Shown piece after piece: positions 2,685 through 63,047 of a stretch of 64,000 bases of DNA. The notes below the pieces were generated by a model. The model was not told where the DNA came from, did not search any database, and saw only the letters and a list, made by a program, of their open reading frames with translations. The position numbers and the translations under genes were made by a program. Position 1 is the stretch's first letter, and every line of letters begins with the position of its first letter. The stretch is from Psococerastis gibbosa (Eukaryota > Arthropoda > Insecta > Psocodea > Psocidae). The DNA lies in the NCBI GenBank assembly GCA_963971405.1, contig OZ020491.1, forward strand, positions 16,362,855 through 16,426,854. Direction: 5' to 3'.

Positions 2685-3137
2685 GGCGCGAATTCCACCG
2701 AACTCGTTTTTGACAGTTACCGTGATATTGTAGTGGTAGCAGACATTAAAGACAGTCTAAAAATGACTGCTACCACGTCAATATCACGGTAACTATCAAG
2801 AACCGATCCGAGTTTACTCGAAAACCCTCCAAATTGAGTTAGCTCAAAATAAAAAATAAATGGTCTCGAGGTATGATTTTTGTGAACCTACATGCCAAAT
2901 TTCATTCAAGTCCACCGAGTAGTTTGCCTGGAAATCGATGAACAGACAGACAGACAGACAGAGCGACAGACAGACAGACAGATAGACATTTCGTAAAAAC
3001 CACTTTTTTTGGTTCCTGGGACCTCAAAACGTGTAAATCCGTTGAAATCTCGGATTCGAAAATTTCGACCATCACAAAGCTTTCCTTATACTACGCATAA
3101 ATTGGAAAGCAAAAACGAGGTCAGTGGAATTTGCGCC
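2685..3137. mobile_element. Palindromic MITE B1, interrupted by a later insertion
   Basis: The left end reads GGCGCGAATTCCACC beside TTA, and the right end reads GGAATTTGCGCC beside TAA. Left and right arms are inverted copies (for example GACAGTTACCGTGATATTG). The centre holds GTGGTAGCAGACATT and its partner CTGCTACCAC. The right arm is split after 2799 by the GACA-microsatellite element at 2800-3109. Removing that insert restores the arm complement. The ends and the TTA/TAA flanks suggest the PIF/Harbinger (Tourist-like) group; this is inferred from ends only. Confidence 0.75.
2800..3109 (+). mobile_element. GACA-repeat Helitron/HINE-like element, copy A1 (internally deleted)
   Basis: It starts with GAACCGATCCGAGTTTACTCG-type sequence, jumps to the 3' half with the GACA microsatellite (2941-2985), and ends ATAAATTGGAAAG. 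It sits inside palindromic MITE B1, so its ends can be read against the intact opposite arm: either a 3-bp CAA duplication or no duplication at all. About 500 bases present in copies at 20451 and 33318 are missing after position 2820. Confidence 0.75.
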
Positions 3138-3140
3138 TAA

Positions 3141-5743: not shown

Positions 5744-8700
5744 CTGAAAATAAAATACTGTACGTTATACAATGAATACAATAATTTAGTTACTTTGTAA
5801 CAGTTTTAAGAGGTATAACCACTCATTTTAGCATTTTCTGTTTAATTGCATGACTACCAAACTGAACATTATTATTTCAGAAGGATGGAAACTATCTCTA
5901 TTCTCTGGCTGATATTAATTAAATCTACAAGAGCTAAATTACGAGATAAAACACACATACATATAACACAGAACAACAATACAACGAAACTGGTTTAAAA
6001 TCCCCATCTTCAGGACTCCTCCACTCTTCCCCGTCAGAATACTTGGGGGGAAACACCCTGTACCCTCAATCATCTTTCCGTGGCCAATGCTGGAGTTATT
6101 ACTGTTTTAGGCGCCCATTCCACATACGTCAATCGTCAATGAAAAATTGAAAAATGACGTCAACATGACGTAAATTGACGTGGTAGCAGAATTTTTAGTA
6201 TGTCTTTAATGTCTGCTAAAACGTCATTTTTCAATTTTTCATTGACGATTGACGTATGTGGAATGGGCGCCTTACATATAGACGAAAAGACACCCGCCCC
6301 ATCCTCAAATTAAATTAGGTCATCCCCACTGCAATAATGGAGAGTTCCCCTTATGCACATACTACTAGCCCCCAGTAAAGCCACTGTTACTAGGACTCTC
6401 TACAACCCCACAGATGATTTGCGACACCAGCTAGTGGTTCAAGTAAATGACCCATAGAAACCAACATTTACAATTCAGAGAGTGGTCATTAAGTTAATTA
6501 AGGATAAAGTTCACCAATATTTTCAGGATACACCTAGCTGCACGTCATGGTTATACATAATACACCATCCAATTTTAAAGAAAATTACGATTACCTGGCA
6601 GGCTTTATGGAATATTCTTCAGGTATCTTAATTACCACTTTTAAAAAATAAGCTCCAACGACAATGGTCAAAAAGATTGTCGATGCCTTCCGTTTTAATT
6701 TTATCTCATCTTTTGAGCCAAGTAGCTTTTTAATAGTTGTTATTTCATCGTAGCACACTGACAAAGTGTTTTCAACAAGAAATTTCTTCAAGAATTTAAT
6801 TATGTGTAAAAGCTGAGGTTTCATTAAAAGTTTGTCCACTTCGGTATTGGCTGCCTTACTTAATTTTTTAATCAATTCGTCAGATAATGTTTTACTTTTC
6901 AGCTCAAGAAGAATTGGCGTTGCTAGAACAAAATTAGAAATAAAAATAATAAATTTAGTCAATTTTTCAGAAGGCCTACCTTATTAGTTTGTAGCTGTGG
7001 ACCGAGAAATTAATTACAAATCAAGAAATCGAACCTTCAAGCCACTTACTTACTAGCCAACGGCCCCCTGCCGCTGACCAGTGAAGATGTGCCTTGAGTG
7101 ATGCTCCTGTACCGCCTTCCTTCAGTAAAAATTGGGCAGCATCTATGGTTTGAAAGTAAAAAACAGGGCCCGCCCGTGACTCTGTTGAGGTGGAATGCCA
7201 GAAAGTCGTGTCCAGATGTAGTAGGGAAGACTGCAACGAATGTTGGTCGCGGCAGATTTCTGTCGACAGGACTTGAGGACAGAACATCCCAATTTCCTTC
7301 CGCCACCACCAATAAATATAAGTTAATTTTCAGTATGTTGTGCTTATGTTGAGTTTGGGGTGCCCAGAAAGCTACGAAAAATGACACAGGTGTGTGTTGA
7401 AGGCTCCCGAGCTCGAGTCAAAGCGGATGGAGGCCTCTCAGCCCCTTTCGACGTGGCAACCGGCGTTAAGCAGGGAGACGGCCTTTCTCCACTTCTTTTC
7501 AACCTGGTCTTGGAAAAATGCACGAGGAAGGCAAGAGAAATGAGAGGAGGAGTGACGGTGGGCAACAATGTAAAGATACTGGGCTACGCAGATGACCTCA
7601 ACGTCATATCCCACACAAAAACGGAAGTGGATGCATTGGTGGTCTCGATTGAGGAGGAGGCAAGGAAGGTTGGCCTCAAGATAAACGTGGAGAAAACAAA
7701 GTATTTACAAGTGTCTCGCCACCCCTGTCCCCCCCAACAAGGCCGTTTTGAGGAAGTTGAAGAGTTCCGGTATCTGGGATCGGTAATCACGAGAGACAAC
7801 CGAGTAAGAGCAGACGTCATCAGCCGTATAAAAGCTGCCAATGTGGCTTACTTTCAAACGAGACCCCTTTTCAACTCCAGGCTTCTATCATGGACCACCA
7901 AAACTCGGCTCTATAAAACCCTCGTACTACCGGTTCTGCTGTATGGCGCGGAGGCTTGGACGCTAACATCCAGGGAATGCGACGCACTGCGAGTGTTCGA
8001 GAACAAGATGCTCAGGCGGATTTTTGGTGGGATCATTGAGGACGGCAACTACAGAGCTAGAACCAACGCAGAAATTCACGCCCTATACAAATCAGCTAGT
8101 GTCTTGGACCGTCTCAGGGGGCAGCGACTCCAATGGATAGGTCATGTAGCGAGAATGGACCCCTCCAGAGCAGCACGCGCTGTATGGGAGGCTCACTTGA
8201 CCGAACCCAGACCCCTGGGAAGGCCAAGGAAGAGGTACCAGGACCAGATGGCGGATGACGTCCAAAAAATGGGCTTGCACCCAGAAACGTGGCGGACGGT
8301 GGCTTGTGATCGAGCGGAATGGAGAGGCATAGTACGTGCGGCCAAAAGTCCCCATGGGCTGTTAGCGCCACCCTAAGTCAAGTAAGTCAAGTAAGTCATG
8401 TTGTGCACATCTTATTTGTTTCATCATAACTAAATGTTTTGTTGTAGAAAGCTTAGAAGTGGAGAAATTAAGTTATTTGTTTTTACAATAGCTAGACATT
8501 GTTTTTGTACCTAGTATATTCTATAATCTTAGGGTGTTCGATGGGCCCTCATTTGTGGCCTACGTCTTTGGTCCCTTTGGGACACCTAATGAACACTAAT
8601 AATAATAGTATATTACCTGCAGTACAATTCTCCTATCAGTACTGATACTGAAGGCGTATTGGGGTCTGGACCATAGACAAATAACTAATAATAATAACTG

Positions 8701-14469: not shown

Positions 14470-14611
14470 GGCGGGGTTTCCATATACGTCAATAGTCAAT
14501 GGTAAATGTGGTTTTGACGTGGTAGCAGACATTTTTATACTGTCTTTAATGTCTGCTAAAATGTCAATACCACATTTACGATTGACTATTGACGTAGGTC
14601 GAAACAGCGCC
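14470..14611. mobile_element. Palindromic MITE B3
   Basis: 142 bases with direct TTA on both flanks and ends GGCGGGGTTTCC and GAAACAGCGCC. Arms ACGTCAATAGTCAATGGTAA... face their inverted copy. The centre has GTGGTAGCAGACATT and AATGTCTGCT. The arm sequence is shared with the half-element at 54986. Confidence 0.85.
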
Positions 14612-20700: not shown

Positions 20701-23700
20701 CATTTTTTTGTACAAAACCAAATACTTTTTTGGGAAAGCAACCTGAACGGTTTCGTTAGTCAATTTAACACCTAAAACATACCTGAAGGTAGAAATCATC
20801 GATAGGAAGGTTTCGTAGAAAAAATATTTTTTAGTCATTTTTCATTAAAATTTAGTTATTTTTATTTTTTTACCCCCAGAAGCAAACTATCAAGGGGCAA
20901 GCGACCCCCCGCATTTTGTTAACATTAGTAACGACTACAATATATGTGAATTTAAAAGAAATAGTTGGAGCCGTTTTTGGGAAATAATTTTTTTAGACGT
21001 TTTTTGAAAATAAAAACCCCCCAAATTGAGTTAGCCCAAAATAAAAAAAAAATGGTCCCGAGGTATGATTTTTGTGAACCTACGTGCCGAATTTCATCAA
21101 AATCGACTGAGTAGTTTGCCCGGAAATCGACGAACAGACAGACAGACATTTCGTAAAAACCACTTTTTTTTGGTTCCTGGGACCTCAAAACGTGTAATTC
21201 CGTTGAAATCTCGGAATCGAAAATTTGGACCGTCACAAAGCTTTCCTTATGCTACGTATAAATTGGAAAGCAAAAATTAAAAAGAGTGGCGTTAGGGCAT
21301 CAGTATTCTGGATCACATCACCAAAAGTAACTTACCATGGCAAATCCAGAGAGAAGTGCCGAAGTTTTGCTGGAAGCTTTAAGTTTTGCTCTGCTAAGTT
21401 GAAGCTTTCTCCACGAGAGGTAGCCTGGAGTGTGTAGACCATCGCCAGACTGAGACATCGTGGTCGACTTTCCCTGGAACAAGAAAATTGAATTTAAGTT
21501 AACATCCTCATAGTGATAAACGTCTTCTTAACTATTGTGCGCCCACACAACACTTATATTATAAATGTAAAAAATAGTTTACTCATCAGCAGGCATGGCA
21601 CGAGGTATAGTCCACGCAAAATGAGAAAAGTATGGATTTGGAATGTTTTGGTACTGTACGACACTGTAACCTTTTCGATTGCACCATTTTGTTATGCCTT
21701 GCATCCAATGCATTTCCCCTGTACAGATTTAATGAAAACACTTAAGACTGTTTTGTTCGAATGTTGTATGCAAAACTACAAAGCTTCTGTATTCCATATT
21801 AGATGTAAAAAGGGCATCAATGCGGATACGTCGCAAACACGATCGCAGGGTGTCATAAAGTAATTGATAAGTTCATCTTAGTTTTGGTATAAAGTATGTG
21901 GCCGGTAACTTTTTGAACTCATCCTCAGTGGCTGATACTGTTGGCGTCTCAGAACAGCCTCGGAATTAGGGACACGATCTCTCCAAGATATGCGCTGCAT
22001 TCATCTGCATTTTGCGGAAGAATTCAACAGAGGAGTCAACGGCATAAGGATGCAGAAGGCAACGGGAAACCACTGCATTAAAGGTCCTTCGGGGCATCCC
22101 TTGTACAATCATCATGAGCGAAAAGTTTAAAACTTATCGCTCAAATGATCGCCAATCTTCAACGTTGAAGGGGCACGAGAAGAAGAAGAACGGCCTGGAT
22201 ATACCGCAGCCCAAGCCTACGAACCCCGTTCTTATTGGTAAAGACTAATTTTTTAACATCACTTTAATTGCCTGGAACATTTATGCTGCGGCCGCATGTA
22301 ATGCCCAAAAAAGACCAGAGCACTGGAAGAATAGTCCTTTGCTTTTGAGTGGTGAAAGTGTCTTCTAAGGTCGGATTTGTAGAAAACATAGAAACAGGAA
22401 TAACCATACTCCTAATGTGGCTATTCCACTTGTCAGTTTTTCTTCAATTTTGAAAATGTCATTGACGGAAATATCATAAATGTTGCTGCAACATGCATAC
22501 ATATTTTTACACCTCATTCCACTTGTCTTCAATAATTTACTGACAATTTTTGTTTTCAAGTGGAATAGCCATCTAACCGTATTTTTAAAGTGTTAACTTC
22601 GGGGCAGTTATTATGGATACGGTAATATAGTAACCCAAAAAAAGGACACAGACTGATTTATTACATCTATAAATCCGGGGGATTCATCAGAAGAAGATAA
22701 TGAGGAGGATTGGATATAACATTCAGCTTGCAAATGTTTGACTTTAATACAGTGGATACGGTAACTACTTTTCTTTTTTAACATTTAATTCAGAAGTTTA
22801 GAAGTTTTGACGCAAACAGTATCAGCCACTGAGGATGTCAGGCCGATTGAGCTCCAAAGACTGTGGCCATTTGGTGTTAGTCCCGGCCATTTACTGTATA
22901 CCAAAACTAAGATGAACTAAGGCGCCCATTCCACATACATACAACGTCAATGAAAATTATGAAATTGAAGGACATTTCAATTTCTCATTGATGGGGGCCA
23001 TTCCATATGTTTTTCAAAAATTGACAATTTTCAATTGAAACGTATGCGCCAAATTTTTGAAATTTGTTTGCATTTGCTTCTTGAAATTGTATTTGTTTTC
23101 TTCGTCGCCTTATTATTTAATCCTTATTATAATTTTTACACAGAAATGCTTTCTTTTTAGAGAAATCAATTAAAATAGTTGTACTTGTCATATCACATGA
23201 CGCCATTTTTTAATTTTAGATTGCTTGTTTCATTGTTTGTGATTTTACTCTATTATCAATTGATCATTGATCAATTTTAACAATGGCATAGAGTAAAATT
23301 GAAATGCCCTTCAATTTCATAATTTTCATTGACGTTGTACGTATGTGGAATGGGCACCTTATCAATTACTTAATGACACCCTACGATCGTGTTTGTGACG
23401 CATCCGCATTGATGCCCTTTTTACATCTAATATGGAATACAGAAGCTTTGTAGTTTTGTATACAACATTCGAACAAAACAGTCCTAAGTGTTTTCATTAT
23501 ATCTGTATAGGGGAAATGCTTTGGATGTAAGGCATAACAAAATGGTGCAATCGAAAAGGTTACAGTGTCTTACAGTACCAAAACATTCCAAATCCATACT
23601 TTTCTCATTTTGCGTGGACTATACCAAGCAAACAAAATATTTTTGGAACAGTACTTGCCAGTCTAAAAATATTTGGGAATTCCCGTGATGGACCCCTTGA

Positions 23701-36017: not shown

Positions 36018-36405
36018 GGCGCCCATTCCACCGACCGGCTAGGGCTATTTACAAAAACGGTGACGTGGTAGCAGACATTCAAGACTTAGGTGGCGTTTCC
36101 ACCGACCTCGCATTACAGAATGCAAATGACATTGACGGAAATTAGAATTTTTCTTTTTATAGAAATCTATTAAAATGTTTGTACTTAACATATCCCATGA
36201 CGCCATTTTTTAATTTTAGTTTGTTTGTTTGTGATTTTACTGTATGATCATTGATCAATTTTAACTATGGCATAGAGGAAAATAAACATTTCCGTCAATT
36301 CTGCAATGCGAGGTCGGTAGGTCGGTGGAAAACCCGCCTAAGTCTTGAATGCTACCACGTCACTGTTTTTGTAAATAGCCCTAGCCGGTCGGTGGAATGG
36401 GCGCC
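36018..36405. mobile_element. Nested palindromic MITE C1
   Basis: The outer palindrome has ends GGCGCCCATTCCACCGACC and its mirror, with direct TTA on both sides. Its arm runs GGCTAGGGCTATTTAC.. to GTGGTAGCAGACATTCAAGACT. At the exact centre sits a second TIR element starting TTAGGTGGCGTTTCCACC and holding the 150-base unique core (CATGACGCCATTTTTTAATT). The right inner arm is partly rearranged (AGGTCGGTAGGTCGGTGG). Confidence 0.85.
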
Positions 36406-37876: not shown

Positions 37877-38271
37877 GGCGCCGATTCCACCGACCGGCTA
37901 GGGCGAAATACAAAAAAGGTGACATGGTAGCAGACATTCAAGACTTAGGCGGCGTTTCCATCGACCTCGCATTGCAAAATGCAAATGACATTGACAGAAA
38001 TTTGAATTTTTCTTTTTATAGAAATCTATTAAAATGTTTGTACGTAACATATCCCATGACGCCATTTTTTAATTTTAGTTTGTTTGTTTGTGATTTTACT
38101 GTATGATCATTGATCAATTTTAACTATGGCATAGAGGAAAACAAACATTTCCGTCAATGTCATTTGCATTCTGCAATGCGAGGTCGGTGGATACCCTGCC
38201 AAAGTCTTGAATGTCTGCTACCACGTCACCGTTTTTGTATTTAGCCCTAGCCGGTCGGTGGAATCCCCGCC
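37877..38271. mobile_element. Nested palindromic MITE C2
   Basis: Direct TAA on both flanks. Same outer arm, inner element and unique core as C1, with the right inner arm complete (GTCAATGTCATTTGCATTC). The outer right arm ends GGTGGAATCCCCGCC. The best-preserved member of the group. Confidence 0.87.
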
Positions 38272-38364
38272 TAAATGATTATAATAAGAGTGGTTCCCAC
38301 CAAGTGACAGTATTTGTTCTAGCGGGTACTTCAAGTGGGCTTGGGTCCTGTCAATAGTACTTTA

Positions 38365-40752: not shown

Positions 40753-41158
40753 CACATGAAAAAACGCCAGCTTATATACTACGGGATGGGAGTGGGAGGT
40801 GGAGGCGGGGGTTGAGTACATAAATCGAGTAGTGGGGATACAGTTTGAAACATTATATCGTTCGTGAGAACCTCGTTATTCCTAATAGCCTTTCTAATCT
40901 CTAAGCTTTCTAACCTGTCTAATAGTCTACCTTTATTACAACAATGTAGAATTTTAAAATCTTCAAAATTACATGAGTGCGAGTTACTTGAGAGGTGGTC
41001 CGCAAAAGCTGAGGTACAGTCATTTTTACCGATCGCATTTTTATGCTCACGTAAGCGAAACTTAAAATTGTATCCCCACTACTCGATTTATGTACTCAAC
41101 CCCCGCCTCTACCTCCCACTCCCATCCCGTAGTATATAAGCTGGCGTTTTTTCATGTG

Positions 41159-41203
41159 TTGTTAGTCTGATGATGGATTTTATCCGAAACCGGTCACTAT
41201 TAA
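41159..41203 (+). ncRNA. Hammerhead ribozyme-like motif, copy 2
   Basis: CTGATGA (41167-41173), stem II GGAT/ATCC (41175-41185), GAAA (41186-41189) and the cleavage-type triplet GTC at 41193-41195. TTGTTAGT before the core pairs with ACTATTAA after the GTC with one mismatch, giving a type I layout with a minimal stem III (C..G). The extra T at 41174 is unusual against the strict consensus. Confidence 0.55.
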
Positions 41204-41272
41204 AGTATTTTACAGTGGATCATTGCGTTCTTCTTCCTCTACTCATGATAATCCCAAATCGCCGAAATCGGG

Positions 41273-42966: not shown

Positions 42967-43989
42967 CCTAAGCACTGAGATAGCTCAGGTGGTATGAAAT
43001 AAAAGAATAACGTTCGTTTGAGGATTAAGACTGGTAAGGCTTTCCTTACACTCAACCATAGAGGAGACCACCTGCTCTACACCAGTCGTTCCCAACCTAT
43101 GGGTCGCGACCTAAGATGGTGATGCGGGGCACTTTTATTGGGATCGCGGAACCAAGGCCGTAGCTATAGATTTGCGACGGGGGGAGGGTAGGTATGGGAT
43201 AAGCTAGTCTAAGCACTGAGATAGCTCAGGTGGTATGAAATAAAATATTAACGTTCGTTTGAGGATTACAGGGCCTCCATCGTAAAATTGATCCTAAATA
43301 GTTGAAATAGTAACCTAAACTTTGAAAAAAGTGACCTTTTAGTAACCAGGTTACATCATTGAAAAACATGGTCAGGGGTTTCATACGCTAATAAGCAATA
43401 TACAAAATCAATGAACTCAAATTTGTATGGCAATAAAATTTTATATTTAAGGGCAGTGTTTCGATTTTGGGAAACTTTGCAACTCCATGCACACCAACGC
43501 CCCAAAAAATTAAACTCTCATCTTCAGGCTTGTCAGATTCAGCGAAGTTCAAAACCGGACAAGACCCCAAAAGTATTGTAATTTTACCTAGTATACATTT
43601 TTTTCTGAAGAAGTTCCAATAATAATTACTCTCAATTTTACGAAGCCTAATTTGAATTTTCTGCATTTTTTTTTTCAAAAGAAGTGACTAAAATCAAAAT
43701 TGCAACGTTAACGCAGAATGGAAAAACATTTTAAATTTTGAGGCATTTATTATTTATTAATAAATTTTATTATTTTTTTGGTAGGACAATGCATTGTCCG
43801 GTTCATCAACAAATTATCAGCCGGATTAATCATTGAAAAACCCAAGCCCGTGTAAATTTATTTCTTGTGAATTCAATTGTATCTAGTGTATTCTTTAGAG
43901 GTTATTGTGTATTACTCGTATATGTATGAAAGCCTAGAAAATTTATTAGAGGTTTCAGCTTCGGTGCGAACACAGGCTTATAATATTTT

Positions 43990-44470
43990 GCGGACATGCG
44001 GAATAAATTGCTTTTAACCCAAAGAGGGGGGCCCGGGGGTTGCCCCAGGCGGAAAAATTTGAAAATATAAGTGCAAAATAGCGGGGTTTTACGCATTTTA
44101 ACAGCAGTAAAGTATGGATTTTACCAAGCTTACAAAAAAATTCTTCTTCATAAAAATAATATTGCATTTACCTCAAAAAGGGGGGCACGGGGGTCTCCCC
44201 CGGGGGAAAAATTTGAAAATGTAAGTGCTAAATAGTGGGGTTTTACAGCAGAAGGGGTCTCCCCCTGGGGGAAAATTTGAAAATGTAAGTGCTAAACAGT
44301 GGGGGTTTACAGCAGAAAAGTTTGCAAGGGAATGCATATTGATATTGCTCCAAACAAGGGTACCGGGGGTCTTCCCCGGGGGAGATGTTTTGAAAAAATA
44401 AGTCCAAAATAGTGAGATTTTACGATTTAAACAGCAGTAAAGTTTATAATTTACTGAGGAAGACACATTC
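43990..44470 (-). repeat. Degenerate tandem repeat, about 70-190 bp unit
   Basis: The block GGGGGGCCCGGGGGTTGCCCC, then AAATTTGAAAATATAAGTGC, then GCGGGGTTTTAC recurs four times with variations (about 44020, 44180, 44253, 44360). The minus strand is open through most of it. Fragments like it occur at 49300. Confidence 0.6.
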
Positions 44471-45760
44471 ATGTTACCGAACTAGATTTATTTAATTCTG
44501 AACTTTTCATTTCGGGGTTGCAGCCCCTCCCCCCTGGCTACGGCCTTCGAAAAACCGGATCTGGCAGCCTTGCTCTTCTTATATGTCAGAAGCTACACTG
44601 ACTGCATTTTCTGGCCATGCTTTGGAGGGCATGTAAAGTAGGCGGTCCCGGGCTCTCCTAGTTGAGTATTGAGATAGGGCTTTATAGCCCTAACTCCGCT
44701 AGATTAGCTGATAATAGCAATTTTCTATTTTTGTAAACCAAGCCACGAGGTGACTAACGACTTAGGTACAGTGCAGTTATTGACTTACTAACTACTGTAG
44801 TGGATAATCCACAGTCCATGTCCATAAGTTAAGCCCAGGGGATAGTTCCAGAGGGGCGGAGCGAGGCCTGGCCAGGTACTCTTATGAATGGGGGTTGCGT
44901 GACCTTGTTTGGCTTTGTATTGTGTGCAGACTGCTGAGTGCAGACCCCACAATCCCCCCGATTACACACTCGAATATTTATTCGACCAAAGAAATATTGG
45001 GCCCATTTTTTTTGAAAAATGAAGGTATTACACACTCAAATATTTCTTGGCTTGTGCCACGTCTATTAAGTGGCAAAAGAAAGAAATATTAGCAAAAAAA
45101 ATGCAAAATCAACTTTTGTTGCACAGAATAAGGATGGCGTCTAAAGAACGAAAAATCTTTTTTAACTATCTAAACTTTTTTAACCATGGATGAAAATATG
45201 AATGAATGCATTTAATGCGGAGAGTTGCCCCTACTCCGGGCAGGAATTTATAATTTAGACTATTTAAGACAACTAATTTTTTTAGGCTATTTATTATTGA
45301 CAACGTCTAGAATCTACGTCCTACATTGAATTGTACCTTGCGGAAATGAAATAAATATACTATTGTAACTTCGTCACACTGTTAGCGATTGTAAGTTTAG
45401 GCGCTGTCAATTGATGGCTAGGCCCATAGACAAATAACTAATATGGGAAAGGCCCCTAAGACAGGAGACGACAACGGGAAGACAAATCGCGGGGAAATAA
45501 ATGCATCATTAATATTCCTATTAATTTTCTCTTGCGATTTATTTGGGTAAACTGGTTTAGTTTATCGTATAAATGCTCCTCTTCCTGGATTAATTCAAAT
45601 AATAATTTGGTCATTTCCATTATCCACTTCACATTAGAGGTTATGCGCCATTTTGAAAAAGTTTGTTGGCGTCGGTTGCCATGGTTGGTTTGTTTACAAA
45701 ATTATTGGATCCAATTTAAAGTGTGTGTCTTAAATTCGATTGAATCTGAATTTTTGCTAT

Positions 45761-45902
45761 GGGGGGTATTCCACATACGTACAACGTCAATGAAAATTAT
45801 GAAATTGATGGTGGCAGCAGACATTTTTACATACTAAAAATTCTGCTGCCACCATCAATTTCATAATTTTCATTGACGTTGTACGTATGTGGAATACCCC
45901 CC
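45761..45902. mobile_element. Palindromic MITE B5 (near-perfect)
   Basis: 142 bases. GGGGGGTATTCCACATACG mirrors to ATACCCCCC at 45902. The arms match B4 (CAACGTCAATGAAAATTATG). The centre is GGTGGCAGCAGACATTTTTA with TTCTGCTGCCACC. The arms show almost no differences. Confidence 0.88.
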
Positions 45903-46645
45903 TATTACACGTTCCAATTTTTCTTCAACCAATATTTATTGCATCGAATATTGGACCATTATTCGAGTGTGTAATCGGGGGGAATACCATTTTAAATATT
46001 ACCACCGGCGCCAAATTTTAAATTGCACGTGATTGGAAGAAAATCAATTTTCATTAGTTAAAAAATTAAAATTATATCGAAAACCCCTCAAAAAAGTAAC
46101 TAATAGTAACCAAATATTAAAAAAGTAACCAAAAAGTTACCTGCCGTGAAAAAAGTAACCAATAGTTGAAAAAGTGACCAAGTGGAGGCCCTGGGATTAA
46201 GACTGAAAAGGCTTCCCTTACACTCAACCATAGAGGAGACCACCTTCTCTACACCAGTCGTTCCCAACCTATGGGTCGACCTAAAATGGTGATGCGGGGC
46301 ACTTCAATTCTTTTATTGGGATCGCGGAACCAAGGCAGTAGCTATAGATTTGCGACGGGGGGGGGGGGGGGGTAGGTATGGGATAAGCTAGTCTAAGCAC
46401 TGAGATAGCTCAGGTGGTATGAAATAAAATATTAACGTTCGTTTGAGGATTAAGACTGAAAAGGCTTCCCTTACACTCAACCATAGAGGAGACCACCTTC
46501 TCTACACCAGTCGTTCCCAACCTATGGGTCGACCTAAAATGGTGATGCGGGGCACTTCAATTCTTTTATTGGGATCGCGGAACCAAGGCAGTAGCTATAG
46601 ATTTGCGACGGGGGGGGGGGGGGGGGGGTATGGGATAAGCTAGCC

Positions 46646-48381
46646 TAAGGCCCGAGGCTACCATAGTGGTTTATACCGAGCTTGAGAAAGCAAGAAAGCA
46701 GAACTGAATTTTAGTAAATACAAAAAGTAGAAATATAGAAAGAACAGAACATATTTAATTTTTATTAATTTAAAAACGACCTTTTGAAGGGACAAAGAAT
46801 GAAAGGACACGAAAATACTTTGTGGAAGATGGAATTTTTCACGACGGGGGGGGGGGTCCGGACCCCCATAAATACGGCCTTGCACGGAACTCAGCTAGAT
46901 AAAGGTTAATAAAATATTTCTCTCAAAATTCCTCAAACCTTAATTTTTTTGCACCTGCATACATTCAAATAATTCCCCCGGTGGAGACCTCAGGACACCC
47001 CCACCAGGCAAATACCACTGTTCTTAATCTACAGATAACTACCGCTTGGTGGAGAGGGGCCAACTTTATCATTAATCTGGGCCCCGGTTTCGTCCTTATT
47101 ACGATTTACGGCTGATTTCAGTAACTGCAATGGTTGGGGCCTAGCACAAGCGTAAATTTTACGTTGCGTCTACATCAGCATTTTAAGGGACGGGCCACCA
47201 CATTTCCTAACGGAAAATCGTTCGCGGCCGACGGTAAAGAAGCATGTATTCTAGCTATTGCTATGAACCCCCCCCCCCCCCCCCACTATACATTTCATAA
47301 CTATTTTTTTTCTTTTTGTTTAAATACTAAACATCGCAAGTAAACACTACACGAGTAAATTAATGAACAACTGTAAGCTTAGGGACGCCGTTTTCCTTAC
47401 GTACGTAAGTACTCGTATAAATACAAGTACGCTAGCGCTTCAGTAGCGCCTATTCAACCTATATACTCGTAAAGTGCCGAGATACCTCTACCGCGTTTTC
47501 CTACACACATTATAGACGGAGTATTTAAGGAAAGCTTTGTAATTCCGAATTATTAATTAATTGAAATTCATTTCGGAGCACACCGCGGCCCACCTTGAGT
47601 AGCTGCCCACAGTTTAGGCAACGCTGGTCTACATCTTCAGTGGCATTATGTGGACTTGTACGATTGTAGCTCGGAGGCACAGTAACTTGTGCCATTGAAT
47701 GTTTAACACAATATGCTATGTATTCAGTGCTTAAGAAACGTATGGAAGTACGCTTTCAGATGGACCGCGGCCCTTCAGCGCGTACCACTTCATCAACAAC
47801 ACCCAACACGGCTGCGTTTCTGATGACAGTCTTCACCACTTTCATACTGTCAGATCATTGCTCCAATTTCCTCTTATTTTCACCATTTGGAATTGTGGTG
47901 TTTGGTTACGCCACTGCCGTTGCGTTTGGTTAGCTCAGTGCTGCATAAGCGACACTTAGCTTTCCTTAGAATAGGTATGCACGCGTCTCCTCTGACGTCA
48001 GACAACCTATAGGCATCCGAGGCATTAAATAGGAGTTGATTCGGAAAATAGCGCGCGAAGTAAGAAGGTGTTTGAATGCAATAGAATTATGTAACAACAA
48101 TAATAATAATAATAATTTTAATTTTTCAAATCTATCTACGCTGTCCTGAGCCAGTGCGCCTGTTTAATTGGTAAGTGCTCATTGATATTATTATACTGTA
48201 TGAAAAGGTTTTTTTATTATTTGTAAGCCTGTAAAGTGGGTAGACTAAATTGTCTTATTATCTAAATTATCTCTAGATAACATACATAAATATGAAGAGC
48301 TGAAGACCTGCAGGACAGTAAGTTCGATGGATCAAAGGAATAATAATGCTAATAATTTAGCATGCCTGTATACGTACTTAC
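46646..48381. other. No gene seen; G/C-run repeats
   Basis: G-runs at 46845 and a C-run at 47269-47284 mark remnants of the poly-C MITE group (ATACGGCCTTG at 46872). GTACGCTTTCAGATGGACCG at 47749 recurs with one change at 50380. If the 48382 exon is real, its next exons must lie here or further left; none could be recognised. Confidence 0.4.
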
Positions 48382-48466
48382 CGTTGAATACTATCCCCGT
48401 TGGGATCGGAGGAGGGTATGAACTTGGAGTGTAGTTGGGTGGTTTTCGAGCCCCCTGAGTTGACAT
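48382..48466 (-). CDS. First coding exon of an unidentified proline-rich protein
   Basis: The exon opens after TCTCTTTTTTTCAG at 48497 and has 31 bases of 5' UTR. The ATG is at 48466, and it reads MSTQGARKPPNYTPSSYPPP then IPTGIVFN, ending in phase 1 at AACG|GTAAGT. Both splice signals are strong. Proline- and tyrosine-rich N-termini of this kind are found on small membrane or adaptor proteins, but I cannot place the family. No downstream exon was found in the window. Confidence 0.5.
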
Positions 48467-48603
48467 GTATGCAGAGATCAGTTAACACTTTATACGTCTG
48501 AAAAAAAGAGATAAGTATTACGTGACAGGAGCAAAAAGGTACACAGTATGCAGTAGACCTACACGCTTAGATTTAGGACAACAGCGCTTGGAACACATCG
48601 TAC

Positions 48604-48871
48604 GGCGGAAATTCCACCGGCGATTTTACTTCATTTGTGATATGAGATATTTTGTTTGTTTTGTGTTCAGGAGACTATTATGTAGATACTTACATTATCT
48701 ATTATAAATTAAGTTATAATATGGTAGCAGACATCATTAATAAGTCTCTACCATGTTATAACTTAATTTATAATAGATAAGTTATGTATCTACATAATAG
48801 TCTCCTTAAAACAAAACGAACAAAAAATCTCAAATCACAAATGAAGTAAAATCGCCGGTGGAATTGCCGCC
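48604..48871. mobile_element. Palindromic MITE B6, long arms
   Basis: 268 bases. Ends are GGCGGAAATTCCACCGGCG and its mirror (CCGGTGGAATTGCCGCC). Arms of about 115 bases (ATTTTACTTCATTTGTGAT.., GAGACTATTATGTAGATAC..) are unrelated to the other members. The centre has ATGGTAGCAGACAT and CTCTACCAT, a shortened core. It lies upstream of the 48382 exon. Confidence 0.85.
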
Positions 48872-51329
48872 TAAACCGAAGGTGGATGAGGTGTTATTTA
48901 GAATTTAGCATAGGCCATAGAATAATAGCATATCTATGGTAAATAATGGTGTACTCTTCATTTTACTCTGTATTTAGTTATTTTACATAACATAGTAATA
49001 TGAGAGTAATAAGTAAGGAACAAGTCTACAAATGTTCAGAAACATCATCAATATTTTATCAATATTCAGGGACGTAACCACGGATATTATCCATACACTA
49101 TACTGTAAAATATTGATACTAGTATGTACTACTAATTACTAGTAAACTTTCCCTTCCAATAGCTATCCAGGGATTTTCAGGGGGGGGGGGGGAGGGGGTT
49201 TCATGAACAATGATCCTTGAGAGTATAGGTAGGCCTACATGACATTATTATTTTATTTATTTTACAAAAGTAAAAAAAAAAAAAAAAACAGTTTAGTGGG
49301 ACACTGCACCCCGAGAGAAATTTTTTTTTAAAAATATCTACGAAATAGTGGTGTTTTCAGCATTTTTACATATCAAGGGTAAGAAAAAACCCGCGAAGTT
49401 TGAAATGCATCTTATGAAAGCAACCGAACGTTTAAATGTATAATTTAGAATAATCAGGGGGATGGCAATTGATTTCCATGGGGCGTGCAAACAATGCAGC
49501 CTACGGTACATGAGAAATTCAAACACATGCCCTAGACTATTACTGTACCTCTCATTTATTCCAATTTTGTTAAAAATCAGAAAAGATAACAGATTCTTGA
49601 ATTTTATGAAGTAACCCACACCAAGCCGTACTTTATCACTCACTGATGTAACGATATGCCTGCACAATAACCGGCACTTACGAGTATCTCTATCGAATTA
49701 AAATCACCGCCAAATACATATAGATAAGCATTCATGTATCCGTTTTAACACCGGACTGTCACCGAAAGCTATGCAGGAAGGTAAGAGCCCCCACACCGTG
49801 ACACCAGTCATTATAAGAAAACCCCAAAACTAATTTATGGGCCATAAAGGCAGCAACACTTTTTTAAATGTCAGCAACAGCTTTCACTCTGATTTTAAGA
49901 AGAACCAGGAATAAATGGCCAACGGTATGCTCTAGTTCAGACAACTAGTTGGGAGATGGCCAGATGATAGAAAATTTTGAGTCCTTGCTCCCGACCTTTA
50001 GCAAGGAATGTTGTGTTAATTAAATTAAAATATTTAGAACAATTTGAGTTTCAAGTTATTTAAGAGGAAGTATGCCAGTTTTGGGGTTAGATGGTCCATT
50101 AGGATAGGAACATAGCCTGTATAATGCAAGAAATTAGTCATAGGATTAACCTTTAATTGTATAAGTAAGGTTAAAAATTAGCTTAACTTGTAGCAGTTTA
50201 CTTAGAGCTTCAGGGGGAGAAACCAACCAGAACCGATGCACCCAAAATGATTCTTGAAGACGACTAAGTAATTTTGTTGCATGATGAAGTAGAATCACGG
50301 AACCTCCGAGATCCAATCTTAGAAGTCTACGCAGTGCCACTGAAGATGTCGACCGCAGATGTTGACGAAAGGTTTGCAAGTACGCTTTCAGATCGACCGC
50401 GGCCTATCATCCCGGATTCTGATCATCATTTCATTGTTTATTATTATTATACTTTAATAGTCAGTTACTAGGTTCCTGCACCTTGATCCCATTGCCTCCC
50501 TTCCACCGCCAGTGGCATATTGTTGTAGTCTTGTGGAAGAGGGCGCCTATGACAGTTGGGAAAGAGCAAGAAGTGGTCTCAGGACCTCAGGTTAGGACAG
50601 TAGTACTGCAAGTGTCTTTCTGCAGAGTGGTCAGTTGAGGTGCCAGCTCTCACTACCAACCATATAATACCGCACTTCCAGGTATGTAATCTAGCATTGT
50701 ACGTAACTCATTTATTGTTACTATCTCAAGTCCGCCAAAAAAGACTATTGTTTTCGTCAGTTTTTTGTTTCCAAATGAATACTGGTGTTACTAAGGAATA
50801 ATAATCTCGTGCTATACTTCTGCAGTATGTTACAAAAAATATTAAACCTGTAACAGACTAACAGAATATTGTTAATGCATCTTAAGCGATGTACCTCAGT
50901 ACAGTACCTATCTAAAAAAAAACATCCAATCCCACCAATGAGGAATTAGGTGATGTGTGACTTGATGGACGGAATTTGTATGCCATTATTGGCAACTTTT
51001 TATTCTATATTCAAGATTATCATATATCTTTATATTAGTTTCATTATTTACAATTGGTTTATAATTTCACATTCATGCAGTCTGTTTCTTTATGTTTGAA
51101 ACACAGATTAAGTTATAAAATAATTATAGTTTTGAGAAAGCTAACAATTCTTGTTTTTAGTGTAATACAGTCATCCCCCACTTAATACACACCTGTGACC
51201 CCACCTATCCTCCCTCCATCTAAACCTAGTCTCCCACACATCTAGCACAAATTCCCGGGAGGAAAAAAAACAGTCATTAAATTGACTTTTGTGGTTCAAG
51301 TGGCAATCGAAATTAGAGAATGAAGAAGA
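48872..51329. other. No gene seen
   Basis: G-run at 49180-49196 and A-run at 49271-49288 belong to degraded MITE remnants (ACCCCGAGAGAAATTT). Open frames at 49338-49667 and 50146-50471 are unplaced. Confidence 0.35.
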
Positions 51330-51425
51330 ACCCTCGGCAAGGTATAGATCGTGGGTTTGAATCCCGCCAATTTCAGATTCCTCTTGATTCTTTAGTTTCA
51401 GAAAACCACACCGACAAAATTTGAC
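51330..51425 (+). repeat. tRNA-derived SINE head
   Basis: TATAGATCGTGGGTTTGAAT holds a B-box-like T arm, followed by CCCGCCAATTTCAG. It shares TATAGATCGTGGGTT with the minus-strand copy at 31516. It does not fold as a full tRNA. Confidence 0.45.
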
Positions 51426-51605
51426 TTCAGGCTACGAATTAACTCAAGCAGGGGAATATTTGAGAAACTTTCAGGGTGATTAGACACATAAGTTCAGCTA
51501 GGCAGGCAACATTTTAAGACAGAAGAGCTAAAAGTTACAATTTACAGTTTTGAAAGAGCCACTAAAATTTTTGTTTCAATATCATGTGTGAGGCTTCGGA
51601 TAAAA

Positions 51606-52430
51606 AGTTTACTCGAACATGCTTTCCAATTTATCAAAATTAGTAGATAGAGAAAATGAGTAATTTCATGGTAAATAATTTTCCTATTATTAAATCTCCG
51701 ATATCTCGGGGGGGGGGGGGGGGGGGGCGGGGGGTTGTCCGTCTAACGTCACTGGAGTTGAGGTAAATTCTAGATAGGTCAGACCAACACATTACCACAC
51801 AGCAATAATGGCAGAGCACGCAATGCATTTGAGGGGGAATTTTCTATCATTTTTTTCAAAAAAACATTTTTTTGCAAAAACCATCTTTTTTTGGGAGAGT
51901 AACCTGTCCGGTTTCGTAACTCAATTTAACACCTAAAACATGCCTGAAGGTAGAAATCATCGATTGAAAGGTATCGCAGAAAAATTATTTTTTAGTCATT
52001 TTTCATTAAATTTTAGTTATTTTTATTTTTTTATTCCCAGAAGCAAACTATCAAGGGGCAAGCAACCCCCCCGCATTTTGTCAACATTAAAGACGACTAC
52101 AATATATGTGAATCTAAAAGAAATCGTTGAAGCCGTTTTTGGGAAATAATTTTTTTAGACGTTTTTTGAAAATAAAAACCCCCCAAATTGAGTTGGCTCA
52201 AAATAAAAAAAAATGGTCCCGAGGTATGATTTTTGTGAACCGACGTGCCGAATTTCATCAAAATCGACTGAGTAGTTTGCCCGGAAATCGACGAACAGAC
52301 AGAGAGACATTTCGTAAAAACCACTTTTTTTGGTTCCTGGGACCTCAAAACGTGTAATTCCGTTGAAATCTCGGAATCGAAAATTTGGACCGTCACAAAG
52401 CTTTCCTTATGCTACGTATAAATTGGAAAG
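51606..52430 (+). mobile_element. GACA-repeat Helitron/HINE-like element, copy A5
   Basis: It begins at AAGTTTACTCGAACATG, so about 12 bases of the usual left end are missing, and ends ATAAATTGGAAAG. The G-run at 51709-51728 replaces the plain sequence of copy A2. The GACA tract has shrunk to two or three units. Confidence 0.82.
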
Positions 52431-52689
52431 CAATAATTACGGTTACAGAAATTCTAGCTTAAATTGTAGTTACTGTTAAAATTTGTACAAACGATACGAT
52501 ACTGGGTACTCCCCCGGCCGAAAAAGTGACAATAAAAGTGGAAAATAGCAAGGGTCTTTGAGTGGAAGGTTTTGATAGTAAACAAATTACAATTTTCAAA
52601 TTTGGCGCGTGAAACTAGTTAGCCCCAACTTTGAATTGGAGAAGCCGCACAGTCGAACACAGTAGCCAGCGGCCGTAGCACTAGGTATA
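52431..52689. other. No gene seen
   Basis: Short intergenic stretch without features. Confidence 0.35.
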
Positions 52690-52805
52690 ATACCAAGTTA
52701 ACTTATTACTGGGGTTAAAAATGTAAACAACATTTTTAGAATAGCACTGTAATAATTGTTTTTTGTTTACATTTTGAACCCCGGTAAAAATGTAACTTGG
52801 TACCT
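52690..52805. repeat. Short palindromic repeat H5
   Basis: ACCAAGTTAACTTATTACTG, GGGTTAAAAATGTAAACAAC and the mirror TGTTTACATTTTGAACCCCG, AATGTAACTTGGT. The loop carries ATAGCACTGTAAT, as in the other H copies. Confidence 0.72.
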
Positions 52806-53304
52806 TCGTAGGCAGGCCCATGGCAATATAAAATATCTAATACTTTATTAAGTTACTCGTAGTATTCATAAAATGTAAATTTTCTATGTTGAAATAAATA
52901 AACTAAACATCATGTATTTTAAACATTGATATACATGGATAGCTAGCACGGCACCTAGCCCACGCTGAACAAATGTCTTCACTTTTGGTCACGTGACAAA
53001 AGGGGTATTATGGCAAGAAGTGGTTGACTCCATTGCGTTCAAAGCGATTTAGACGTATTTCATTGCCTGTTATTCAATTTATTTACCCATTTATTGAGTT
53101 TTTCTTTGGTTTGACATAATTGTCATATCTTGCTCTGCTTATAAATGCACTAATAGGTTCAAGATATGTCGAGAAACGGGGGAAAATATTACTTTTCACA
53201 AGCAAGTGTTCGCATGGTTTGGTCATAAGTTGATGCAACATTTATGGGTTTATTTAAGTTTTATTAATCATTATGTTAACAAATCGCACACTTTCGATTG
53301 TCCT
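52806..53304. other. No gene seen
   Basis: AT-rich, no features; ends in the 8-bp target site ATTGTCCT. Confidence 0.35.
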
Positions 53305-53625
53305 CAAGGCCGTAGCCAAGGGGGGACCCTTGGGGGTGGTCGCCCCCCCCCCCCCCCCGAGAGAAATAGCATTATTCTAGTTAGAATGGACTTTTGAAGG
53401 AAATTAAGAGAAATTATTACTCAAGTAAGGGAAACGCGATATTTTTTGGGCTACCGCCCCCCCCCCCCCCGAAAACTTTTTCTGAAACCGTTACTGCCCC
53501 GAAATGAAATGGCTTGATACTAGATAGAATCGGATTTTGAGAGGAAACATAAAAACCACTATGTAATACCCAATGAAATTTTTACCCCCCCCCCCCCCCA
53601 AAAAAAAATCCTGGCTACGGCCTTG
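53305..53625. mobile_element. hAT-like MITE with perfect 8-bp duplication
   Basis: 321 bases with 14-bp TIRs CAAGGCCGTAGCCA and TGGCTACGGCCTTG. The flanks ATTGTCCT (53297-53304 and 53626-53633) are identical. It has three C-runs. The middle segment (GAAATGGCTTGATACTA..) matches the shorter copy at 9820. Confidence 0.88.
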
Positions 53626-53650
53626 ATTGTCCTGTATAATTTTAATACTA

Positions 53651-53695
<45 letters not shown>

Positions 53696-54068
53696 GTTTC
53701 AACCTCAAGGCATTTTTTAGTTCGTCAAGTTTAAAATTATTTTAGGAAGCTGAAAATTCCAGCAGCCTAAGCAGGCCTAGTCCTGCAGAACCTAAGTTTT
53801 GATAGTGAATAAAAATAGCGAAACACTATAAGGCAAATTTACAGAGGAAAAAAGTGTTTTTATTTCCCATAAGGGCGAATTTCGTGGCTTTCTTGCAAAT
53901 CACACGTACTGCAAAATGTCTAGAAATTATTAGGCTTATTGATATTGACATCCCTAAATCAACACTGCAATATTTTTTCATTGATGATAGCACACAGAAT
54001 ATTCACATCGTGTAAGCATAATAAGTAGGCTATGCGATTTAAAAATTCGAATGCCGGTGTGGGTGGAT
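53626..54068. other. TTA microsatellite and unassigned sequence
   Basis: A TTA repeat lies at 53653-53691. The rest is AT-rich. Confidence 0.5.
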
Positions 54069-54224
54069 CAGGGACGGATCCAGCTCATCATGGGGGGGGG
54101 AGCTGTGGGTCAAAATAGGAAAAACCTATGTAGTATCGATTAAATCAGAGCGTTATAAAAATTACCTTATAAAATAGATTCACTGATTTTTTTTTTTTTT
54201 GGGGGGGGGGGATATCCGCCCCTG
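54069..54224. mobile_element. MITE CAGGGACGGATCC
   Basis: Ends are CAGGGACGGATCCAG and GGATATCCGCCCCTG, with G-runs on each side and a T-run at 54187-54200. CAGGG-type ends and the GGCGGATCC motif are common in hAT-related MITEs. No duplication is visible. Confidence 0.6.
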
Positions 54225-54775
54225 TCAGACAGCTGACAGCTGAAGGGGGGAGCTGCCCCCAAAATCTTATAAGCTAGCCTGTTGTAAGTTGCCTAACTTA
54301 TTACGTTATAATGTAAAGGATACTACATTTGTTTATTATATTGTGAGCTAAATTACCCCCCCCCCCCAATGGGCTGGATCTACTCCTGGTATAGGTAGGA
54401 GCATAAATTTAGCAAGTTGAACACTTCAAATTTAGTCCCAATGCAATTAAATAGACGAACATGGTTAGATTGGACTAAATAGTTTGACTATCTTTTGTTA
54501 AATTGCTGCTTGACACAATTTTTCTTAGTAACATATTCCTAGCTAAATATTAATAAATCTTCATAAATGCTGGTGTGTGACCATAGAATATTGTTCTATA
54601 TTAAATACAAAAATATTACAAAAGCAGAAAATGTCAATAAATCGTATTAAAAAAATTATTGAAAAACATCAAATTTACACGTAAGTGTATATGGCATGGA
54701 ACGCTTCTGCCATAATGTTCAAAATATCAGGTTTTGTCCGTTGCCGACATCCCTAGCGCTCCTGGTGTGTTTCCA

Positions 54776-54809
<34 letters not shown>

Positions 54810-54985
54810 CAATGATTTTAAACCTAAACTTTCAAAATTGTTCATTGGCCCAAGGCCCTAGTGCTTTCTGAGAGCTACAGTTCTGAGAGCTTTTCTTTCC
54901 ACCAATGAATGATTAAAATTAAATTATTATCAATGATTATTTTTTAATAGACTGCCATTGACGAGTGTTTTGGGTACGTTCTTAA
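54225..54985. other. No gene seen; TA microsatellite
   Basis: TA repeat at 54777-54807. A C-run (54356-54367) with GGGCTGGATCTACTCCTGGT is another MITE remnant. Confidence 0.5.
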
Positions 54986-55062
54986 GGCGTTTATTCCACC
55001 TACGTCAATAGTCAATAGTAAATGTGATGTTGACGTGGTAGCAGACATTTTTAGACTGACAA
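54986..55062. mobile_element. Half palindromic MITE B7
   Basis: One arm only: GGCGTTTATTCCACCTACG, then ACGTCAATAGTCAATAGTAA (as in B3), then GTGGTAGCAGACATTTTTAG. It stops at the centre, and no mirror arm follows. Confidence 0.75.
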
Positions 55063-60285: not shown

Positions 60286-60357
60286 GACCTGGATTAAGAC
60301 AATATGGCACCAATACCACTCAATATCACAGATGAACAACGCTTTGCTTTAATCAAG
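60286..60357 (+). CDS. SEC14-like exon with start codon
   Basis: 18 bases of 5' UTR after TTGTTTCAG, ATG at 60304 (context ACAATATGG), 18 codons, ends AAG|GTAGGG in phase 0. Confidence 0.85.
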
Positions 60358-63047
60358 GTAGGGGACTGACTACCTGACATGGTTCTAGACAGTTGGTGAC
60401 GTCAACATTAACTATGACTTGTTTCTATTTCTCTAATGCCAACGACTCCATGGATTTCGGACATTATTTGTATTGTTTCCGTATGAATCACACCTGCTAC
60501 AAACGATAATGGACAAGCTGAGACAAGCTTATCATTGACGCAATGAAACAGGCGAAAGCATGACTTTACCAAGTACTGACGCGAGTCATGCTTACAGTAT
60601 AATATACGATCGGTTGTCAAACCGGAATTAATTAATCTAGTAAAAAAATACCCGGGCCTACTTTGCCTTAAAAATAGCTTCAGCAATAAGTTCACTGCAT
60701 CACAATTTAAAGCAGCGATACGTTATTTGTATTGTGCAATTACAATAATTAAATATCACTTTTCTCGCAATGCATAAGAGTCAGAGGTCAGAGATCAGTT
60801 CCCACACGGAAATTGGTCACTACTGCTACGGTGTCCATTCCATTGACCGGCTAGGGCTATTTCCAAAAACGGTGACGTGGTAGCAGACATTCAAGACTTA
60901 GGTGGCGTTTCCACCGACCTCGCATTGCAGAATTGACAGAAATGTTTATTTTCCCCTATGCCATAGTTAAAATTGATCAATGATCATACAGTAAAATCAC
61001 AAACAAACAAACTAAAATTAAAAAATGGCGTCATGGGATATGTTAAGTACAAACATTTTAATAGATTTCTATAAAAAGAAAAATTCTAATTTCTGGCAAT
61101 GTCATTTGCATTCTGCAATGCGAGGTCGGTGGAAACGCCACCTAAGTCTTGAATGTCTGCTATCTGCTACCACGTCACCGTTTTTGAAAATAGCCCTAGC
61201 AGGTCGATGGAATGGGCGCCTACCGCAACTATCCCATTTGTTGTACACTTGTCCGTCTCAAGAAACTCATTCATACAAGTTATTCTGATAGACAAAATTA
61301 CGAGAAAAAAAATACTTCTAGACGGTTTCACTACTCTCAGACCATTTTCACCATTATATACAATATTGAAAAACAAGACAGACCTAAACTTATTTTTACT
61401 ATTTTCCAACAATTCTGTGACATTTTCTCAGCCATATCATTGAACAATAAATAAATAAAAAGTAAGCGCAACGCTACTAAGACGCAAAACCTTATTAGTC
61501 AAGAATACAAACGATGGGTTTAATTTTGTAAAAATGTATTTCCCTTTTTTAGTTTCGAAGCAGCGTTCGCGACACATTGAAGCCAGGTCACGATGATCAT
61601 TTCCTACTACGATGGCTACGGGGTAAGCATTATTTCAATTAAAAAAATTCAATTTCAAAAAGATTGGTTTTGAGCACAGAATCACAATTTTACCGCCGAG
61701 TTGCTTCCAAAATAGTTCGCTTAAACTTAACATCATAGATCATACATGGTCACAAATGGATCCAATATCTGGGTCTCAAAAATACAATGCACATGTTTGC
61801 CAAGTCAGAGGGAAAGAGTCGGTCCTAGTCTCATTCTGCTCAAATATTTTAGAAAGTCCCCCCCCCCCCCCGTCTGCACAGCCACTCTTTTGAATGCTAT
61901 ACTCAGTCATGAATCAGCAAAATGCCCGTTTTCCCCAACGCAATTGGTCTACTCCTAGCTAGACTACGGTCGACACGGTTAAATCCGTGGAAAATGCATC
62001 GTGCAGAGTGCAGTCAGCCAGTCATCAAAACAAACGGTTGCCTTCACGCTGATGAAGCACGTGATCCCTCCAACCCAAGCAAATTTAAAAATATTTAGAA
62101 GTTTTAAACTATATTTCTTATTTAAAACTTTTTATTTTGATCCATAATTATTTAATAAGGTTCTGTTCTGTTCCTCTATCGCTCGGGAACCCCCATGCGT
62201 TTTATTTCGTTCGTCAAGTCAAGCTTTTCACGAAGGACAAAGGGCCTCGCAATGAACCGCCACCCGGAGCCTCGCAAAGGGTAAGGCCGCCGCTACATGA
62301 ATGCACAGGTTTCAAAATAGTTTGCAAGCAAGGAATGATAGTGTATCATTTGACGAAATTAATTAATTTCCCGTTCCACAGTAATTAGGCTAGGGACGCA
62401 CTAGGCAGCCTGGCTCCGGCAGCCAAAATATTGCGCAGCCAGTTATAAGCACTGGTCTCCGAGAGTTCATCCTAGTCGTTGTTCTACACTCGATAAAAAT
62501 AGACGTGGCAGATGTTGTTACTATGTACATATTGTCTCGTAGGACAAAACACAGAAAAAAGAGTAGATATTGAATTCATCCACTATTTTGGGAACGGCAC
62601 TTGATCAAGGGCTTGTTTAAAAATGATTTTAACGATATACGAAGACATCCAGATCGTTTCTAAATTACACTAGAATGTCAATACAATCATTGGATGACCG
62701 TCTACAACATATAAGGAATTCAATTACTGGTATTGAAACTCGTATGCGAGCATGCATAATACCAGAAGAAAAATAGGTTATTATCTTTGAGGAGAGTGTA
62801 AAAAAAAATTGTTTTGCAGAGATATGACAGTGGCCAAATGAAAAATTCATAAAAACACAAGCTTTACTACTCGCCCTAAATATTACTACTTCAGCAGCCC
62901 CCCCGATAAAAAACAGATTATAAGGGTATATTATTAAATTAATAAGGGAAATAGTCAGCTTTAAGTAACTCCACTTCTAAAAGCAATTTTTATTCAATTT
63001 CAGCTCGTAGTTGGAACCCAGAAAATGCGGAGAAGATGCTACGCGAG
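60286..63047 (+). CDS. SEC14-like (CRAL-TRIO) lipid-transfer protein, first three exons
   Basis: Exons 60286-60357 (ATG at 60304), 61553-61622 and 63004-63047 join in phase. The product starts MAPIPLNITDEQRFALIK, then FRSSVRDTLKPGHDDHFLLRWLR, then ARSWNPENAEKMLRE. This is the CRAL-TRIO N-terminal helical region: the D-D-x-F-LLRWLRAR run and AEKMLR are its signatures in animal SEC14-like 2-type proteins. These cytosolic proteins bind small hydrophobic ligands (phosphoinositides, tocopherol, squalene) and move them between membranes. Acceptors TTGTTTCAG, CTTTTTTAG and CAATTTCAG and donors GTAGGG, GTAAGC and GTAAGC are normal. Only about 56 of the usual 400 residues lie in the window; the lipid-binding lobe is off the right edge. 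Which paralogue it is cannot be told. Confidence 0.88.
60830..61220. mobile_element. Nested palindromic MITE C4, inner core reversed
   Basis: The outer ends are GGTGTCCATTCCATTGACC and GGAATGGGCGCC. The outer arm and the centre are the same as in C1, but the inner 150-base core runs in the opposite direction. The target flanks have decayed. It lies in the first coding intron of the SEC14-like gene. Confidence 0.85.
61553..61622 (+). CDS. SEC14-like exon 2
   Basis: 70 bases from FRSSVRDTLK to LLRWLR, opening in phase 0 and ending one base into the next codon at CGGG|GTAAGC. Confidence 0.88.
61623..63003 (+). other. SEC14-like intron
   Basis: 1.4 kb with a C-run at 61859-61871 and otherwise no repeat I can assign. 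Confidence 0.6.
63004..63047 (+). CDS. SEC14-like exon 3
   Basis: 44 bases; completes Ala and reads RSWNPENAEKMLRE to GAG|GTAAGC, phase 0. Confidence 0.85.

Follow-up and report, generated by a model that had tools for sequence, protein, structure and literature searches.

The window, by which we mean the whole 64,000-nucleotide stretch of Psococerastis gibbosa DNA analysed here (positions 16362855-16426854 of contig C19, in a genome of 409 Mb in 68 contigs), contains a collection of small palindromic elements, each named in what follows after the position at which it begins (Table 1). Eleven of them had been listed in an earlier note on this sequence, and an element is present at all eleven places. 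To these can be added a twelfth, at 22413-22574, and the inner elements that are nested inside four copies of the 36018 type, both of which were absent from the earlier list. Sites that match the end GGCGNNNATTCCAC with at most one mismatch number 20 in the window, whereas 50 first-order Markov sequences contain 0.7 on average; for the core (at most two mismatches) the figures are 13 and 0.06. The centre that ten elements were said to share is found in ten of the eleven and is missing from 22921. The repeat that interrupts the right arm of 2685 (2798-3115, its left edge uncertain by about 10 nt) has further copies at 21013, 30427, 33312 and 52175, with pieces near 63061. Two large inverted repeats, at 40653-41258 and 40098-40489, have 197- and 174-nt arms that are 95% complementary, and they are without the ends of the family.

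Table 1. Elements of the family in the window (TSD, target duplication)
Positions	Strand	Element	Flanks	Remarks
2685..3137	-	2685 type	TTA/TAA	right arm interrupted by another repeat of ~300 bp; strand from asymmetric centre
6110..6271	+	6110 type, TIR-only	TSD TTA	outer 51 bp identical in both arms; left arm +21 nt
14470..14611	+	14470/54986 type, TIR-only	TSD TTA	
22413..22574	.	additional element, ATTCCACTTG ends	TAA/TAA	without core; contains CATTGACGGAAAT like arm V
22921..23358	+	22921 element, 45761-type arms	TAA/TTA	centre B inside, without core; more copies in L039, L040
36018..36405	+	36018-type composite	TSD TTA	
36089..36338	+	inner element, arm V + centre B	TTA/TAA	within core of 36018 element
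37877..38271	+	36018-type composite	TSD TAA	
38801..39129	+	36018-type composite	TSD TTA	carries deletions
45761..45902	-	45761 type, TIR-only	TSD TAT	arms 97% complementary; strand from 6110 comparison alone
48604..48871	+	48604 type	TAC/TAA	68 nt between end box and common-kind 35-nt arm, in both arms; second copy in L039
54986..55060	+	54986 type		left half + core; right half lost
60830..61220	-	36018-type composite	TSD TAC	

The 3-bp flanks are identical in seven of the ten complete window elements (TTA four times, and TAA, TAT and TAC), a count from which 54986 is excluded by the loss of its right end; 2685, 22921 and 48604 have unlike flanks. In the 36018-type set identical 3-bp flanks were found in 9 of 13 elements, three of the 13 coming from the window. 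The outer end GGCG..ATTCCAC, earlier described as fixed, is indeed common, but it is by no means invariable: 14470 has TTTCCAT and TTTCGAC, 60830 has GGTG together with ATTCCAT, GGGG is found in 45761, and variation among the elements also affects the three bases that follow GGCG. In 164 kb there are 39 family-like ends, with a core within reach for 18 and none for 21 (control, 0); several of the coreless ends are the inner ends of composites or ends of the 22921 type. With complete window elements of 142-453 bp, inverted repeats, a high copy number and 3-bp target duplications, the family is one of MITEs, an ordinary kind of element in which the evolution of the arms happens to be unusually legible.

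MITEs of the PIF/Harbinger group (Tourist-like, mPing) are characterized by a 3-bp TWA target duplication, G-rich ends and small, non-coding inverted-repeat copies. The present family resembles them in its 3-bp target duplication, with TTA and TAA common, in its G-rich ends and in its small non-coding copies; it differs in also targeting TAT and TAC rather than TWA alone, and in having a further conserved box whose distance is almost fixed. The genome, which by its LINE proteins is loosely insect-like, contains at least 150 matches to DDE_Tnp_4 (150 scored among 220 candidates). As a possible autonomous partner DDE_Tnp_4 was not linked to the family ends at the 2 of the 150 loci that were read, where an exact-word scan revealed no such ends around the transposase frame, in 2.6 kb each, a span that may miss ends. 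In L050 an open DDE_Tnp_4 frame is followed, some 540 bp downstream, by a 6110-type element with TTA flanks (2036-2197), which is a separate MITE copy. For mPing, an effect of internal sequence on mobility has been described (PMC9921582).

The abundance of the family is considerable. The exact core is present in 26,337 copies in the 409-Mb genome, against 3 for a reversed control, and the combination of ATTCCAC, 20-49 nt and the core gives 11,428 exact halves, against 0 in the control. Among the halves listed, which are the first 100 of the 11,428 and all from contig C1, the arm is 32-36 nt long in 96 and 33 nt in 75, although 20-49 nt were allowed, a range blind to arms as long as those of 48604. 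The arms in the window had been put at about 25 to more than 100 bases; they are in fact 33-36 nt long but for three, namely 6110 left (56), 2685 right (44 as joined, the edge of the insert being uncertain by about 10 nt) and 48604 (103). The paired-core pattern had 0 matches in viral contigs. Prokaryote relatives were considered and rejected, as all 8 loci with the paired-core pattern are without the full core motif GTGGTAGCAGACATT and resemble ordinary hairpins. The motif letters of the family find no mention in the open-access literature searched.

Are the arms of the different elements really foreign to each other? The earlier note distinguished at least five unrelated groups, a division that has not survived closer comparison, since the types in the window are largely alignable and the genome copies give two blocks. 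The arms of 6110, 14470/54986 and 22921/45761 are a single alignable type, and in arm-only alignments among 45761, 6110, 14470 and 54986 all six pairs have P ≤ 0.002 (2000 shuffles). The centre is asymmetric (ATTTTTAGACTGTCTTTAAT), and orientation by it allows five elements to be aligned from end to end: 6110 and 14470, 54986 with its left half and, reverse-complemented, 2685 and 45761. For 2685 this orientation is clear (37 vs 23 with 6110, 42 vs 27 with 14470); for 45761 it is clear with 6110 alone (32 vs 21) and open with 14470 (21 vs 20) and 2685 (26 vs 28). The inner arm of 2685 matches the common arm profile (P 0.002-0.004), and one of the four pairwise comparisons of 2685 with 14470 and 54986 passes. 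No match to the common profile was found for the 36018-type arm (P 0.43-0.66 over 30 nt).

Neighbours were suggested by a spanning tree built from 36 arm entries, of which 35 are distinct, taken from the genome list, the window and other loci, and 20 + 9 neighbour pairs were tested with 1000 shuffles after removal of the near-constant four bases from each end (the “interior”); as the pairs were picked as neighbours, the weak P values among them are optimistic. Judged by these alignments, the arm types are two well-joined blocks, a CGACC block and a GTCAATAG block. Block one leads from 36018 to a CTGCTAGTGCTAAATAC variant (0/1000), from this to the outer arm of L052 (2/1000), then to arm V (0/1000) and the CGACCTCGTTTTGC type (0/1000), which in turn is joined to 2685 (0/1000) and to the CGACGTCGTTTTTC type, g09 (0/1000). 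Block two leads from the CAACGTCAATAGTGATAG type, g12, to 54986 (1/1000), 14470 (0/1000), 6110 (2/1000), L028 (0/1000) and 45761 (0/1000). Compared directly, the end members look random (36018-45761, 437/1000; 36018-54986, 534/1000). Gradual divergence thus connects the arm types within each block, which is most of what the earlier note had named as the outcome that would refute it, but the links between the blocks are weak: the candidates are 2685-54986 (6/1000), g09-g12 (18/1000), g09-g14 (53/1000) and two through the arm of L046 (47/1000 and 19/1000), and the bridge that they would form, though probable, is only suggestive.

The long arm of 48604 is the common 35-nt arm with 68 nt added, because its core-side 35 nt match both the common arm profile (0/5000 shuffles on the left and 2/5000 on the right, this register being the best in both arms) and the nearest genome arm (interior, 1/1000); with 54986 alone the resemblance is weak (interior P 0.121). 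The 68-nt block is present in both arms and absent from the other arms of the window. Second copies of the 48604 and 22921 types were found in arbitrarily chosen stretches, and both are therefore repeated subfamilies. A half element in L051 has a CGACGTCG arm, its other side is by eye like the interior of 48604, and it is possibly a recombinant.

In the 36018 type an outer element encloses, within its core, another of its own kind, and the inner one is flanked by TTA and TAA. Centre B (~150 bp) is common to this inner element and to 22921, with 78-80% identity, and the arms of 22921 are 95-98% identical to those of 45761. The elements that surround the two sites of centre B (23150-23316 and 36150-36300) have different arms. 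In L052 the outer and the inner arm are both of the arm-V kind; L032 has a plain core between arm-V-like arms, and its spacer is by eye like that of 48604.

The observation that the two arms of an element agree has proved sound, the agreement being far better within elements than between them. Of the 362,880 possible left-right pairings of the nine window elements with both arms, none equals the true one, although 60830 is an exception, each of its arms being closer to a 36018 arm than to its partner. When 6110, 14470, 22921 and 45761 are taken by themselves, 2 of the 24 pairings tie for first place, namely the true one and that in which the near-identical 22921 and 45761 are exchanged. In a sample of 13 elements of the 36018 type (10 from fetched loci and 3 from the window) the arms differ, per 33 nt, by 1.69 within an element and, between elements, by 2.79 (left-right), 3.08 (left-left) and 2.5 (right-right), and the observed sum was reached by 0 of 20,000 shuffles. 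The end 14 nt are also paired (16/20,000), yet the difference within an element (1.08) is no closer than left-left (1.0), and at the ten core positions pairing is absent (0.54 vs 0.53). Boxes and arms differ at similar rates in this subfamily; constraint is therefore proposed for source copies only. Eight TIR-only elements, a script-picked set that misses other two-half elements (e.g. L050 and L054), have an arm difference of 5.75 within and 12.7 between elements (0/20,000 shuffles), and their own right arm is the nearest for six of the eight left arms, the exceptions being L055 and the damaged L028; subfamily structure adds to all such within- versus between-element contrasts. Copying between arms is needed, because independent divergence from a palindrome predicts a within-element distance that is not below the between-element distance.

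The left/right asymmetries bear on the direction of this copying. Next to the right core both 6110 and 14470 have TTTT instead of GTGG, and the 21-nt extra stretch of 6110 is on the left only, though the outer parts of the 6110 arms are identical. The 6110-related copy in L050 has kept both the centre asymmetry and the 21-nt extra, and it differs from the window 6110 by changes that are paired on the two sides, in the arm (T/C), in the end box (C/T) and at the three bases that follow GGCG. In 7 of the 13 elements of the 36018 type the outermost bases are GGCG at one end but GGTG at the opposite end. The earlier note had invoked inverted copying, with snap-back or a template switch at the core as examples; inter-arm copying itself has stood up, but the 6110 and 14470 types contradict a snap-back from the core. 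Since outward copying from the core stem would erase the left/right differences, conversion tracts that lie within the arms are the better fit. Snap-back amplification of MITEs is said to have been proposed before, for fish elements.

We consider it probable (about 0.7) that these elements belong to one MITE superfamily, with two conserved boxes in each half, a spacer that drifts while its length stays nearly constant, and gene conversion from arm to arm. The boxes recur across the subfamilies, a conservation partly ascertained by the finding of the elements through their boxes; the spacer drifts at a kept length, neighbours are linked inside the two blocks, and the arms are homogenised. The elements would be non-autonomous palindromic DNA transposons with 3-bp target duplications, mostly TTA, TAA, TAT and TAC. 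In each half a spacer arm of ~33-36 nt would separate the end box (mostly GGCGNNN-ATTCCAC) from the inner box, TGAC-GTGGTAGCAGACATT, and the “centre” would simply be the point where two inner boxes meet. The boxes may be retained because they are recognised, in the source copies, by the transposase that moves the elements or by a partner protein, the spacer being important mainly through its length, and the two arm blocks would be one lineage. Homogenisation would be gene conversion between the inverted arms of source copies, either during gap repair after excision or during hairpin replication, in tracts that span the arm and not always the innermost or outermost bases. The longer forms presumably arose by insertion, of an element of the same kind into the core (36018 type) or of 68 nt into one arm and later copied to the other (48604 type).

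On the model of the earlier note, an element captures new sequence between its constant end and its constant centre and makes an inverted duplicate of it, through snap-back or through a template switch at the core. The agreement of the arms within each element, the identical 68 nt in the two arms of 48604 and the weak bridge between the two arm blocks are all what such a process would leave. But intermediates connect the arm types inside each block, arm length is nearly constant, and the bases by the core stem stay unlike while the outer arms of 6110 are identical, an asymmetry retained in the L050 relative; moreover, outside the elements the only matches in the window are to the 2685 insert or its edge and none to the arms, albeit in a small search space. 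The building of arms from captured, unrelated sequence is thus not supported for most types, ordinary divergence joining the genome copies into two blocks, and we regard this model as unlikely. Capture is not shown, with the 68 nt of 48604 as the possible exception: this block is the one case still compatible with capture and inverted duplication.

Conversion could be dispensed with altogether if each subfamily had begun as one new, perfect palindrome whose arms then decayed independently. Many copies do have near-identical arms with scattered differences, and 45761 is nearly symmetrical, core included. Against this, the centre asymmetry of 6110 and 14470 is common by descent and yet their arms differ on both sides, and the L050 copy differs from the window 6110 by paired changes; this explanation is disfavoured because the common asymmetry would be lost each time that a new palindrome formed, and it seems to us just as improbable as capture. 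Slightly less probable still is selection for symmetry, in which a protein that binds both arms requires them to match and the paired changes are compensatory. The words GTCAAT/ATTGAC number 27 in 3,042 bp of elements and 37 in 60,958 bp outside, an enrichment such as a candidate binding site would have, although the elements are related and the counts not independent; the arms of distant subfamilies, however, drift to near-random similarity, and their letters seem little constrained. To the preferred reading, conversion between drifting arms, we would add a more speculative proposal, which we hold to be possible rather than likely. End repair coupled to transposition would repeatedly convert arm from arm, in tracts that end short of the centre and of the outermost bases; the two-box spacing of about three helical turns would be kept in the source copies, leaving the spacer free to become any sequence; and the 68-nt block of 48604 would be a new insertion fixed in both arms.

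Parts of this picture are familiar from other systems. Galileo/Foldback of Drosophila likewise has long inverted repeats with changing structure (PMC4168063); Galileo, however, is assigned to the P superfamily by its transposase (PMC4168063), and the present elements are short and have 3-bp target duplications. In Anopheles, MITE-like families are described that have TIRs in common and different interiors, some of them palindromic, and possible divergence past detection is mentioned by the authors (PMC3212995). The subfamilies here also have common ends and different interiors, but they differ from the Anopheles families, as there described, in their second conserved box and in the agreement of arm with arm. 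In Wolbachia insertion sequences the left and right TIRs of one element are reported to be made identical by gene conversion (PMC3004938), a TIR-to-TIR conversion within one element like that proposed here, although the elements are bacterial and their conversion is coupled to an inversion of the transposase gene (PMC3004938).

MITE subfamilies that seem unrelated in a single window can be joined once the intermediates of the genome are added. With 11,428 exact halves, and with centre markers that are inherited in some of the subfamilies, inter-arm conversion tracts could be mapped in many natural copies.
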